Both the position numbers and the translations under genes were made by a program. 64,000 bases of DNA from Anaerolineae bacterium (GTDB lineage: Bacteria; Chloroflexota; Anaerolineae; Caldilineales; Caldilineaceae): assembly GCA_030432295.1 (NCBI GenBank), contig JAUIHI010000001.1:62001-126000 (forward strand), given 5' to 3'. The first letter of the stretch is position 1. Each line of letters starts with the position of its first letter. This document shows, piece after piece, positions 30,848 to 46,447 of this stretch. The notes under the pieces were generated by a model. It was given only the letters and a program-made list of their open reading frames with translations, had not been told where the DNA came from and did not search any database.

Positions 30848-35476
<4,629 letters not shown>

Positions 35477-35493
35477 TCGTGTATCTCCTATCA

Positions 35494-35586
35494 GAATGCG
35501 GAGTGCGGAGTGCGGAGTGCGGAATTAAGAGTTGTCAAACTGACACTTCTGTTTAATTCCGAATTCCGCATTCCCCATTCTGCATT
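35494..35586. repeat. Palindromic repeat between rpoB and rpoC, family I
   Basis: The left arm contains three tandem GCGGAGT units and ends GCGGAATTAAGAG. The right arm is GTTTAATTCCGAATTCCGCA and beyond. It occupies most of the spacer between the two polymerase genes. It has no T-run and so need not terminate transcription. Confidence 0.8.
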
Positions 35587-35593
35587 TCTTATG

Positions 35594-39466
<3,873 letters not shown>

Positions 39467-39583
39467 AGTCACTCCTTCACATTTTCACCCGAAAGGCGGG
39501 TGTACCCGGCCAAGGCCACCAAAACCGCTGTCAGTCCGCACGATTCTGGTTCAAAACACAAATTCCGGCTAAAAACACAATAG

Positions 39584-41041: not shown

Positions 41042-41070
41042 TTGACAGGCCATCCGAAGTGTCGTATAGT
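41042..41070 (+). promoter_or_regulatory. Consensus promoter of the trp operon
   Basis: TTGACA (41042-41047), 17-base spacer, TATAGT (41065-41070), 26 bases after the M23 stop codon. Confidence 0.85.
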
Positions 41071-41307
41071 TTGCTGCAATTGATAGCAAATGACTGGGAA
41101 CCGGAAGAGTAGTCATCAAAGCGAACCTCAGAGAGTCCCTGAACGGTGGAAATGGGATGGTAGCGCAGATGGCGAATGGGCCGGGGAGTCGGAAAAGCGA
41201 ACAACGAATTTCGTACCAGTAGCTTTTCCCGGAGACGCCACCGTTACCTGGGCGCAGAGGATCGGGCCGCAAGCCCCGTCTTCGTAGAGTGAGACTGGCG
41301 CAGACGG

Positions 41308-41334
41308 CCCTTGTGTTTCACGCAAGGGTTTTTT
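41308..41334 (+). terminator. Extra terminator-like hairpin inside the T-box leader
   Basis: CCCTTGTG pairs with CGCAAGGG, followed directly by T6. It lies upstream of the antiterminator, where a stem III would be expected; if active it would end transcription before the T-box decision. Confidence 0.6.
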
Positions 41335-41345
41335 GTTTCCACTTT

Positions 41346-41418
41346 CCAAAAAACCGAGTTTTTACGCTGAGGCTCTGTAAAGAACTCAAGCAGATTGAAT
41401 GAAAAACTCGGTTTTTGG
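41346..41418. repeat. Palindromic repeat inserted in the T-box leader, family K
   Basis: Arms CCAAAAAACCGAGTTTTT and AAAAACTCGGTTTTTGG surround about 38 bases. It separates the stem I half from the antiterminator half of the riboswitch. Confidence 0.8.
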
Positions 41419-41531
41419 TGGATGTAGACCAGTCTAAGCGGGGTGGCACCGCGGGCGTTGTATATACAACCCTCGTCCCCAAATGGAGCGCGTATGCGCT
41501 GTGTTTGGCTGGGACGGGGGTTTTTTGTATT

Positions 41532-41618
41532 GGGTATTCGCTCTTGGGTAATAGATATTTGGTGGGGAAGCTCCCCATTCATCACTGCCAAATATCCAAT
41601 ACCCAATAGCGAATACCC
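41532..41618. repeat. Palindromic repeat, family C, between T-box terminator and trpE
   Basis: About 35-bp arms starting GGGTATTCGCT and ending AGCGAATACCC, imperfect, with a centre containing GGGGAAGCTCCCC. It starts five bases after the terminator T-run and ends 20 bases before the trpE ATG. Confidence 0.85.
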
Positions 41619-41638
41619 TCCGACACAGGAGGAGAGCA

Positions 41639-43153
41639 ATGGCAATCTACAAACCGACTTTGGAAGAGGCCCGGGGGCTGGTGGATCAGGGCAATCTGAT
41701 TCCGGTCTACCGGGAACTGCCGGCTGATTTGGAGACGCCGGTTTCGGTCTTTTTGAAGCTGCGCAATGGTGGCCCCAGCTTTTTGCTGGAATCGGTGGAG
41801 AAGGGCGAGCAGGTGGGGCGCTACAGTTTCATCGGCGTCCACCCGCCTATGAGCGTCTGCGGCCACGGGGATCAGGTGATTATCGGCGGGGCGGGCGGCC
41901 AGGAGTTGGAACGCCAGCAGGGCGATCCGCTGGAAATTGTGCGGGAGTTGATGGCCGACCGCAAGCCGGTACAGATTCCCGGTCTGCCCCGTTTTACCGG
42001 CGGCACAGTGGGCTACTTCGGCTACGATCTGGTGCGCTTTATCGAGCGGCTGCCCGAAACCGCGGAACAGACTCTGCGCATCCCCAATCTGCTCCTGCTC
42101 TTCGCCGACAATCTGGTGGTTTTTGACCACGTGAAGCACAAGCTGATCGTCATCGCCAATATGCGGGTGGAGGATGACATGCGTTCGTCCTATGCCGACG
42201 CGGTGGCCCGCATCGACAAAATTGTTGCGGATCTGCGCAAGCCGCTGACCCCGCCCCTGCCGGTCGAATGTGCCAACGGAGCCGAGTGGACGAGCAATTT
42301 CACCCAGGCCGAATACGAAGAAAATGTGCGCAAGGCCAAAGAGTACATCGCTGCCGGGGACATCTTTCAGGTCGTGCCCAGCCAGCGCCTCAGCCGCCCG
42401 ACTGAGGCCGATCCCTTTACGATCTACCGGGCGCTGCGGATGCTCAACCCGTCGCCCTATCTCTTCTTCCTGGACTTTACAGGTGTGGCCGGGGTCGCCG
42501 AGGCGTCGGGTACGAACGAGCCGATTCACATCATCGGCTCCAGCCCGGAGATGCATGTGATGCTGGAAGATGGCACGGCCTATCTGCACCCCATTGCCGG
42601 GACCCGCTGGCGGGGCAAGAGCGAGGAAGAGGACAACGCCCTGGCCGCGGAATTGATGGCCGATCCCAAAGAGCGGGCCGAGCACGTGATGCTGGTTGAT
42701 TTGGGGCGCAACGATCTGGGCCGGGTCTGCGAATATGGCTCGGTGGCGGTCCCACAGATGATGCAGGTGGAGCGCTACAGCCACGTGATGCACATTGTCA
42801 GCGACGTGCGGGGCAAGATTCAGCCCCAGCACGACGCCATCAGTCTGCTCAAAGCCACTTTCCCTGCGGGCACAGTCAGCGGCGCGCCGAAGGTGCGGGC
42901 GATGGAGATTATCGAAGAGTTGGAGGGCACACGCCGGGGTCTCTATGCCGGCGCGGTGGGCTACATCGACTACGACGGCACAATGGACACCTGCATCGCC
43001 ATCCGCACGATTGTGATGCAGGGGAAGGTGTGTCACTTGCAGGCAGGCGGCGGTGTAGTGGCGGACAGCGATCCCACATACGAATATAACGAAAGTTGGA
43101 ATAAAGCCCGGGCGTTGTCCGTGGCGGTGGATGAGGCTGAGAAGGGGTTGTGA
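41639..43153 (+). CDS. trpE: Anthranilate synthase component I
   Basis: 504 residues. The feedback-site region near the N-terminus (FLLESVEKGEQVGRYSFIG) and the catalytic chorismate-binding domain (about 230-500) are complete: DIFQVVPSQRLSRP, GSSPEMHVMLEDG, HPIAGTRWRGKSEEED, LVDLGRNDLGRVCEYGSV, AGTVSGAPKVRAMEII. It converts chorismate to anthranilate with TrpG supplying ammonia. First gene of the T-box-controlled operon; GGAGAG precedes the ATG. Confidence 0.97.
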   Translation: MAIYKPTLEEARGLVDQGNLIPVYRELPADLETPVSVFLKLRNGGPSFLLESVEKGEQVGRYSFIGVHPPMSVCGHGDQVIIGGAGGQELERQQGDPLEIVRELMADRKPVQIPGLPRFTGGTVGYFGYDLVRFIERLPETAEQTLRIPNLLLLFADNLVVFDHVKHKLIVIANMRVEDDMRSSYADAVARIDKIVADLRKPLTPPLPVECANGAEWTSNFTQAEYEENVRKAKEYIAAGDIFQVVPSQRLSRPTEADPFTIYRALRMLNPSPYLFFLDFTGVAGVAEASGTNEPIHIIGSSPEMHVMLEDGTAYLHPIAGTRWRGKSEEEDNALAAELMADPKERAEHVMLVDLGRNDLGRVCEYGSVAVPQMMQVERYSHVMHIVSDVRGKIQPQHDAISLLKATFPAGTVSGAPKVRAMEIIEELEGTRRGLYAGAVGYIDYDGTMDTCIAIRTIVMQGKVCHLQAGGGVVADSDPTYEYNESWNKARALSVAVDEAEKGL

Positions 43154-43223
43154 AAGGCAAAAGGCAAAAAGGGAAGGCAAAAGGGCTACGTGCCACCCGC
43201 CACTTGCCACTGGGGAGACTCGA

Positions 43224-43613
43224 ATGGGACAGGTAAAAGTCTACGGACTACAGGAAGCATTGAACCCCATCAAACGGCAACTGTCCGATGTGATCCATTC
43301 GTGCGTGGTGGAGGCACTGGAATTCCCGGTGGACAAGCGTGCCCATCGCTTCTTCCCCCTGGAACGGGAGGATTTCTTCTGGCCTGCGGGCCGCACCGAT
43401 GCCTACACAATCATCGAAATCGGGCTGATCGAAGGGCGCAGTGTGGCGGCCAGGAAGCGGCTGATCCGGCTGCTCTTCGACCGCATCAGCGCTGAACTGG
43501 GCATTGCCCAACAGGACATTGAAATCTGCATCAGCGAGAGCGCCGCCCACAACTGGGGCTTTCGGGGGATGCACGGCGACGAAGTGAAGCTGAACTATCG
43601 AATTGATGTTTGA
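43224..43613 (+). CDS. Tautomerase-superfamily protein lacking the N-terminal proline
   Basis: 129 residues from ATG 43224 (GGGGAG upstream). The sequence AHRFFPLEREDFFWPAGRTD and YTIIEIGLIEGRSVAARK, with HNWGFRGMHGDEV at the end, fits a tautomerase/MIF-like family. Classical members use Pro-1 as catalytic base; here the mature N-terminus would be Gly or Met (MGQVKVYG), so chemistry may differ. It lies between trpE and trpS in the trp operon. The spacer before it carries AAGGCAAAAGG-type low-complexity repeats. Confidence 0.75.
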   Translation: MGQVKVYGLQEALNPIKRQLSDVIHSCVVEALEFPVDKRAHRFFPLEREDFFWPAGRTDAYTIIEIGLIEGRSVAARKRLIRLLFDRISAELGIAQQDIEICISESAAHNWGFRGMHGDEVKLNYRIDV

Positions 43614-43642
43614 AGAAGATTTGAAGAAGAGGAGTGGAGACA

Positions 43643-44695
<1,053 letters not shown>

Positions 44696-44749
44696 GATGA
44701 TGGGATGCTGAGGGAAGAATATACGCCATCATCTCAGAATCCCATCATC
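44696..44749. repeat. Palindromic repeat, family D (GATGATGGGATTCTGAG type)
   Basis: It lies between trpS and trpG. The right arm reads CATCATCTCAGAATCCCATC; the left arm is diverged in its inner part. A cleaner copy lies at 47533-47590 in the same operon. Confidence 0.8.
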
Positions 44750-44803
44750 AATCCTCTTCAGCGCAAGAACATCAGCACAACCACAAACTTTTCGGAGGAT
44801 CAA

Positions 44804-45397
44804 ATGATCGCCGTCATCGACAATTACGACAGTTTCACGTACAATTTGGTGCAGTTCCTGGGCGAGATTGTGCAAGAGCCACCCTTCAATAGTGGCGACT
44901 ACGAGATTCGGGTCTGGCGCAACGACGCCATCGATGTGGAAGCGTTGGCGGATCTGCACCCCAGCCACGTCATCATAAGCCCTGGCCCCGGCTCGCCGGA
45001 CAAAGACAGCGGCATCAGCAACGACGTCATCCGCATCCTGGGCGAGACGACGCCGATTCTGGGCGTCTGTCTGGGCCAACAGTGCATCGGCCACGTCTTC
45101 GGCGGCAATGTCATCCGTGCGCCCCGTCTGATGCACGGGAAGGTCAGCCCTATCGATCACCAGGGCACGGGCATTTTCGCTGGGCTGCCCAACCCCTTTA
45201 CGGCCACCCGCTACCACAGCCTGATTGTGGAGGAGCCGCTGCCTGCGGAGTTGGAGGCCACGGCCTATACGCCCGAAGGGGAATTGATGGGCGTGCGTCA
45301 CCGCACCCGGCCCATCTTCGGCGTGCAGTTTCACCCGGAGAGTATTCTGACCGAGCACGGCCACGATATTCTGCGCAATTTTTTGAATGTGAAGTAG
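44804..45397 (+). CDS. trpG: Anthranilate synthase component II (glutamine amidotransferase)
   Basis: 197 residues from ATG 44804 (CGGAGG upstream); a longer frame would translate the repeat. Opens MIAVIDNYDSFTYNLVQFLG. Class I amidotransferase triad: Cys in GVCLGQQCIG, His and Glu in VQFHPESIL. It hydrolyses glutamine for TrpE. It could also serve aminodeoxychorismate synthase, as in other bacteria with a single PabA/TrpG. Confidence 0.96.
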   Translation: MIAVIDNYDSFTYNLVQFLGEIVQEPPFNSGDYEIRVWRNDAIDVEALADLHPSHVIISPGPGSPDKDSGISNDVIRILGETTPILGVCLGQQCIGHVFGGNVIRAPRLMHGKVSPIDHQGTGIFAGLPNPFTATRYHSLIVEEPLPAELEATAYTPEGELMGVRHRTRPIFGVQFHPESILTEHGHDILRNFLNVK

Positions 45398-45424
45398 ACA
45401 GAACGGGCTCAGAAGGGGTTGCCG

Positions 45425-46447
45425 ATGATCAGACATAAAACGCTCTTTCTGACCCAACGGGGCCAGCGTCATCACCGTTGGGCGCTGGACGCCGCCCCCG
45501 CTGAGTTGGAGATTGCTATCCGGCGCAACCCCAGCCAGGTCGAACTGCTGGAACTGTTGGCCGATGCCGAGTTCCTGATCAGCGAACGCACGGGGAAAAT
45601 CGACGCCGCGCTGATTCAGGCCGCGCCCAAACTGCGTCTGATCCAGCGCCTGGGCCGACAGACCTGGGACATCGACGCGGAAGCCGCACGTGCAGCCGGT
45701 GTGCCGGTCTGCTACTGGCCGCTGGCTGGCTGTGTGATGGTGGCCGAACATATGCTGCTGCAAATCCTCGGCCTGCTCAAACGGGTGCGGGAGGCGATGA
45801 CAATCACTGCCGAAGGCGCGGATTGGGGCATCCCCACTGTGCGCGGCGACGAAGACCACTTCAGCTATAATTGGTCCCAGCGGGGCGGCATCGGCAGATT
45901 GACCGGCGCGACGGTCGGCATTCTGGGCTTTGGGGAGATCGGCCTGGAACTGGTGGAGCGGCTTCGCGGTTTTCACTGCACGCTCCTCTACCACAAACGG
46001 TCACGCCTGCCCGCACAGGTGGAGGCACAGTTAGGAATTGTCTACGCCACCCCTGCGGAGATCGCCCGGCAGAGCGATATTGTCTGCTCGCTCCTGCCCT
46101 ATACAGGACCCAAAGAGCCGGTCAATGGGGCCTTTTTCGCCCAGATGAAGCCGGGCAGTCTACTCGTCCACTGCGGCTCCGGCGCTGTCATCGACGAAAC
46201 CGCCCTGCTTGCCAGCCTGCGTTCGGGTCATCTGGCCGGGGCCGCGTTGGACACCTACACCTACGAACCCCTGCGCGAGGGCGATCCACTGGTGGACGCG
46301 GCCCGGGAGCCGATGCTCAATCTGATCCTCACCCCCCACATCGCCGCCGGTGGCGTGAAGAGCGGTGGGCGGGGTCGCCGCGAGGAATACGACAATATTC
46401 TGGCTGTGCTGGCTGGGGAACCCTTGCGTTATCGACTGAACGAATGA
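45425..46447 (+). CDS. D-2-hydroxyacid dehydrogenase family protein in the trp operon
   Basis: 340 residues from ATG 45425 (AAGGGG upstream). The NAD-binding motif [17 protein letters not shown], the substrate Arg region [20 protein letters not shown] and the late [11 protein letters not shown] block place it in the D-isomer-specific 2-hydroxyacid dehydrogenases. The substrate is unknown. It lies between trpG and trpD with short spacers (27 and 41 bases), so it is almost certainly co-expressed, although no such step belongs to the standard tryptophan route. Confidence 0.88.

Follow-up and report, generated by a model that had tools for sequence, protein, structure and literature searches.

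A terminator-like hairpin with a U-tract nested within stem III of tryptophan T-box leaders in Anaerolineae

T-box riboswitches of the RF00230 type, such as those of Bacillus subtilis tyrS and glyQS, are built from stem I with its specifier, stem II, the IIA/B region, stem III, the T-box sequence, and the antiterminator and terminator, with stem III forming part of an RRRxG-stem III-AA motif (PMC7583486). What stem III does beyond sensing aminoacylation is described as unclear, and it has been suggested to act as a pause site (PMC6197855); as cited in the same work, the pause site of glyQS stem III was proposed by Grundy and Henkin in 2004, and pausing there was estimated at 30-60 s in vitro. 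Insertions in stem III are known from other T-boxes, and their function is listed as an open question in a review (PMC7583486). In Bacillota, trp operons are often under the control of two tandem T-boxes, that is, of two complete T-boxes in series (PMC12452182). Neither a description of a hairpin with U-tract within stem III nor any report on T-boxes in Anaerolineae was found in the literature searched, the coverage of which was incomplete.

In this work, we analyzed a T-box leader in a window of 64,000 nucleotides (the whole stretch of DNA studied here) from the 6.7 Mb genome of an Anaerolineae bacterium, whose nearest named relative by TrpE is Caldilineaceae bacterium ACE_CHL8 (96% identity). 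An initial annotation, made from the letters of the window, had recognized a leader, a hairpin followed by T6, a 73-bp palindrome, a terminator and a second palindrome; all of them are present at exactly the positions it gave, and the leader start that it assigned (41077) agrees with the sigma-70-like promoter upstream (Table 1). The covariance-model scan that it had proposed returned a single match to RF00230, spanning the full model (positions 1-219) and scoring above the gathering cut-off (94.2 bits vs 93; E 2.3e-19). All elements of the B. subtilis type are found, including the RRRxG-stem III-AA motif (GAGTG-AGACTGG...CCAGTCT-AA) and the T-box bulge with UGGN (GGTGGCACC); the difference is that stem III here nests a terminator-like hairpin and U-tract, the hairpin loop being complementary to the purine string. 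The GAATGG that contains the specifier is present in nearly all trpE leaders of the Caldilineaceae family sample, and the specifier agrees with the regulated pathway, as the leader lies directly upstream of trpE. Antiterminator and terminator are mutually exclusive, sharing CCCTCGTCCCC, with predicted folds of -14.9 kcal/mol for the former versus -33.5 to -36.2 kcal/mol for the final terminator, and the leader fold lies 3.7 SD below that of shuffled sequences. As judged from its sequence, the leader is a transcriptional Trp T-box riboswitch with a predicted response to tRNA. As with the tandem trp T-boxes of Bacillota, the region upstream of trp genes holds more than one element of the terminator type; in contrast to them, this leader holds one RF00230 match, one specifier and one T-box, so that a second T-box unit is absent and the extra element is nested in stem III.

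Downstream, the trp operon trpE-trpS-trpG-trpD-trpC (43131-46444) is interleaved with genes for a Tautomerase_2 protein (43131-43613) and a D-2-hydroxyacid dehydrogenase (45419-46447). Elsewhere in the window, an open frame of 2604 aa on the + strand (31769-39583) lies antisense to an rpoB-like gene identified by eye (35594-39472, - strand) and is probably no gene.

Table 1 Features of the trpE leader region (positions of the window)
Feature	Position	Strand	Evidence
Sigma-70-like promoter, TTGACA-17 nt-TATAGT	41042..41070	+	11/12 consensus matches; predicted start
T-box riboswitch leader (RF00230)	41087..41483	+	covariance-model match, 94.2 bits
Specifier codon TGG (Trp), within GAATGG 41174-41179	41177..41179	+	aligned specifier position of RF00230 match
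GCCACCGTTA, end of stem IIA/B region	41237..41246	+	RF00230 alignment
Purine string GAGTG (RRRxG motif), directly 5' of stem III	41287..41291	+	motif per PMC7583486
Stem III base, 5' strand AGACTGG	41292..41298	+	pairs with 41429-41435
Terminator-like hairpin CCCTTGTGTTTCACGCAAGGG nested in stem III	41308..41328	+	9 bp, -11.9 kcal/mol; conserved position, covariation, terminator score 29.1
U-tract T6 directly 3' of stem III hairpin	41329..41334	+	T run kept in relatives
73-bp palindrome, dispersed inverted-repeat copy inside stem III	41346..41418		15-nt arms 100% complementary
Stem III 3' strand CCAGTCT (41429-41435), then AA	41429..41437	+	orthologue alignment
Antiterminator 5' side including T-box sequence GGGGTGGCACCGCGG	41437..41456	+	RF00230 alignment
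Final intrinsic terminator, hairpin 41470-41520 and T6 41521-41526	41470..41526	+	terminator score 34.2
Second palindrome, other dispersed family, between terminator and RBS	41532..41618		arms 41532-41562 / 41588-41618, 90% complementary
trpE RBS AGGAGG	41627-41632	+	sequence
trpE (anthranilate synthase component I), regulated gene	41639..43153	+	Pfam Chorismate_bind 305 bits, Anth_synt_I_N 133 bits

The initial annotation had considered, as one of two options, that the T-box tolerates an insertion between its modules. The RF00230 alignment places both the hairpin and the 73-bp palindrome inside stem III, not between modules, while the tolerance of an inserted palindrome is borne out. The 14-base arm AAAACCGAGTTTTT occurs in 57 forward and 59 reverse copies in the genome (116 in all; reversed-letter control, 0), mostly paired at 53-nt spacing, and the repeat family to which it belongs counts more than 50 copies, another of them lying at C45:69981-70047 (L002). 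Most sampled copies of the 73-bp repeat share a 39-nt interior, whereas the stem III copy has a diverged interior of 38 nt. Conserved arms, fixed length, copy number and a mostly conserved interior are shared with MITE-/REP-like inverted repeats, from which this copy differs by its location inside a riboswitch stem and its diverged interior. The leader could be read in five sister species: at this spot, G026, G027 and G029 carry a shorter palindrome, G030 has a degenerate one and G028 has none. In the window, the palindrome sits downstream of the U-tract and ahead of the 3' strand of stem III, and the conserved elements are all intact. The second palindrome belongs to another family (GGGTATTCGCT...AGCGAATACCC) with 65 matches in the genome, this copy being in the 5' untranslated region of trpE. 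Neither palindrome touches a conserved T-box element; both are ordinary dispersed repeats that landed in the leader, and stem III tolerates the first.

Large palindromes also occur in the stem II or stem III region of other T-boxes of the Caldilineaceae (L053, L114, L117 and L119), among them another T-box of the present genome with a palindrome in its stem III region (L053, G000:C29:58126-58501), and the landing of repeats in T-box stems seems to be tolerated. A second, non-Trp T-box of this genome (L048, G000:C13:66537-66766) closely follows a tRNA gene and has palindromes on both sides (AGAAGTTCGACTTTTC).

That the hairpin, too, is an inserted or chance structure belonging to a repeat invasion of the leader could be suspected from its neighbor, which is truly a dispersed repeat, but we regard this as hardly credible and as refuted by the orthologues: the exact hairpin sequence has a single copy in the genome, and the orthologous place is occupied in many other genera and families. 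A generic dispersed terminator was rejected on the same single copy, with only two further matches at two mismatches, and a hairpin forming part of the palindromic insertion was rejected because orthologues without the palindrome still have it. T-boxes were gathered from 46 genomes of the family Caldilineaceae and trpE leaders were picked by TrpE homology; a hairpin and, after it, a run of 4 to 7 T were found at the orthologous position in 30 of 34 distinct trpE leaders, and were missing from those of genera g2, g8 and g10. Its shared position in orthologous leaders makes the hairpin part of the riboswitch's stem III, and the notion that it interrupts the T-box is not upheld. Across 29 of the family leaders, 98% pairing is seen in its helix, and four pairs show double changes.

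A covariance model of the module, built from the family leaders with the window left out, found the window's module at 41287-41454 (80.1 bits) and matched 279 of the 396 genomes of the class Anaerolineae, the weakest matches being short and without the hairpin. In an alignment of 100 leaders, which was fitted to this model and is thus biased toward its structure, the hairpin shows double changes at all ten pairs, 93.5% of cells paired and a covariation of 0.579 (at most 0.109 in slid controls), and the stem III base has 94% of cells paired; a plain sequence table shows the same pattern. The hairpin arms differ widely across the class (CCCGTCGTCATCACGGCGGG, CGCGCTCACGAGCGCG, CCCGCCATCACGGCGGG, among others), yet the T-run still comes next, with at least four T in 133 of 136 modules. 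The orthologous leaders show that the hairpin is a conserved part of the Trp T-box stem III and not an insertion. Two other readings of this segment were set aside: a leader peptide across the hairpin, whose frames are partly open, lack Trp codons and are frame-shifted in some relatives, and an antiterminator pairing of the hairpin arms with a linker hairpin (CGCAAG in this genus), which is not conserved in other genera.

The element has the anatomy of an intrinsic terminator or of a hairpin pause, i.e. a GC-rich hairpin with a U-tract directly after it, and thermodynamic folding of the nascent transcript gives its pairs probabilities of 0.81-1.0. We applied the classical terminator score, with the formula of d'Aubenton Carafa and colleagues. 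It was above 0 for 123 of 136 stem III hairpins (median 23.9) and for 130 of the 136 final terminators of the same leaders (median 34.7), as compared with 0 of 137 shuffled stem III modules; in the window, the stem III hairpin scores 29.1 and the final terminator 34.2. The hairpin might nevertheless be a structural appendage, a folded arm of stem III engaged in a loop-string pseudoknot or in a tRNA contact and leaving the polymerase unaffected. Its covarying stem and conserved loop would fit such an arm, as would the insertions known in stem III of other T-boxes (PMC7583486); what this leaves unexplained is the U-tract directly after the hairpin in almost every leader despite complete change of the stem sequence, and we consider the possibility quite improbable.

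The leader set obtained with the model favors leaders that have the hairpin. In an unbiased sample of the class, 55 T-box leaders chosen by TrpE alone, a scoring hairpin with U-tract was present in 34, and a weaker or shifted one was judged by eye to be present in five more (L383, L389, L426, L432 and L436), which brings the total to about 39 of 55; since about 29% of the class trpE T-box leaders lack it, the element is dispensable. It was not found in the 33 non-Trp T-boxes of the family, where, of two automatic hits, one is spurious and the other is a trpE leader whose specifier stands in a variant context. In a phylum-wide search, nearly all matches outside the class were short and without hairpin, with one exception (L371, G414), and stem III is plain, with no hairpin and U-tract, in the Trp T-boxes of Sphaerobacter, Dehalococcoidia, SAR202 and Ktedonobacter. 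The Trp T-box of Leptolinea sp. HRD-7 carries the element, and so do several Trp T-boxes with trpS downstream, which indicates that it tracks tRNA specificity and not one gene. The initial annotation had reasoned that orthologous leaders with the same hairpin would make it an ordinary stem III: it is the riboswitch's own stem III but not an ordinary one, as hairpin and U-tract are absent from the family's other T-boxes and nearly absent from the Trp T-boxes of other Chloroflexota classes. A possible reason for the restriction to Trp T-boxes is that tRNA-Trp is scarce or tryptophan costly.

In the window, GTGA at 41289-41292 is complementary to the hairpin loop TCAC at 41318-41321, and the same relation between a UCAY loop and a GUGA made up of the last bases of the purine string (RxG) and the first base of stem III recurs in the class. 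The loop is UCAC or UCAU in 124 of 136 modules and, by eye, in about 31 of 39 in the TrpE-anchored sample; loop and string are complementary in 149 of 155 leaders, as compared with a mean of 51 when the loops are shuffled, part of the loop sample having been found by a model that favors the family's loop. Compensation at first seemed weak, as GUGG opposite CCAC was seen in a single family (f11). The case was strengthened by leaders with a GAGA or GAGG string, in which the loop is UCUC or UCUU in five out of five trpE leaders from three other families, and none of these loops would pair with GUGA; a sixth leader of the GAGA type (L420) combines GAGAU with UUCUCG. Independent loop changes are few, GAGA/UCUC having probably arisen once or twice and GUGG/CCAC once. 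The GAGA leaders are alike in sequence, and because they may descend from one or two events we grade the loop-string pairing as likely, not proven. It also counts against the pairing that four bases paired to a small closed loop make for a tight geometry. An extended pairing of 7 bp (GUGAGAC/GUUUCAC) was rejected as it is broken in L111 and L115, and the claim is limited to the four-base core.

Three genomes harbor two Trp T-boxes each (G087, L225/L418; G112, L236/L433; G073, L239/L427), one with GUGA or GUGG and a UCAC loop and the other with GAGA or GAGG and a UCUC or UCUU loop; no further leaders of the GAGA type were found in the order of G073 (3 genomes).

The initial annotation had also considered two decision points, an idea consistent with a first hairpin that is terminator-like in nearly all orthologues, its effect on the polymerase being our inference. 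In such an arrangement, the stem III hairpin would be a true terminator whose readthrough is controlled, for example by the loop-string pairing or by tRNA bound to stems I and II, and would gate the costly trp operon in series with the final terminator. The stem III hairpins do score at terminator grade, the tail TTTTTTGTTT resembles that of the final terminators, loop and purine string covary, and the tandem T-boxes of Bacillota trp operons offer a precedent (PMC12452182). On the other hand, no conserved strand was found that could block the hairpin by pairing with its base, the lower stem is not engaged by the loop pairing, and aminoacylation cannot yet be sensed when this hairpin is made, so that two regulated gates appear unlikely, albeit worth keeping in mind. 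Its extension to the class, namely that these Trp T-boxes are two-stage attenuators in which the stem III terminator is the first gate and the loop-RRRxG pairing a switch linking it to formation of the tRNA-sensing discriminator, we hold to be doubtful.

We favor instead, with moderate confidence, the interpretation of the stem III module as a lineage-specific signal that halts RNA polymerase inside the Trp T-box, either as a strong pause or as a partial terminator. Such a signal would be made once stems I and II, the parts that recognize the tRNA anticodon, are complete, and while the T-box and antiterminator, which sense the tRNA 3' end, have yet to emerge. The polymerase would pause at the U-tract, some complexes perhaps being released, and the halt would give tRNA-Trp time to bind ahead of the final decision; pairing of the UCAY loop with GUGA might tie this halt to the purine string, whose later docking partner is the tRNA-T-box helix. 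A strong terminator ahead of the sensing step would, however, lower expression with no obvious gain, which speaks against a halt of this kind. The halting signal fits the pause-site proposal for stem III (PMC6197855). With glyQS it would share a halt of the polymerase at stem III before the discriminator is made, whereas it differs by an overt hairpin and U-tract, confined to the Trp T-boxes of one lineage, in place of the short stem III of glyQS (PMC6197855).

For the annotation of T-boxes, trimming leaders at the first poly-U can cut leaders of this kind short. The pause hypothesis for stem III has so far come mainly from one in vitro system (PMC6197855). With natural leaders that have the element, lack it or differ in the loop, this hypothesis can be tested directly, as can the role of the purine string, and the genomes with two Trp T-boxes (G087, G112 and G073) provide natural paired variants for testing the loop pairing. 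In Anaerolineae, the T-boxes of only one amino-acid class appear to have acquired, in the course of evolution, an explicit halting signal within stem III.
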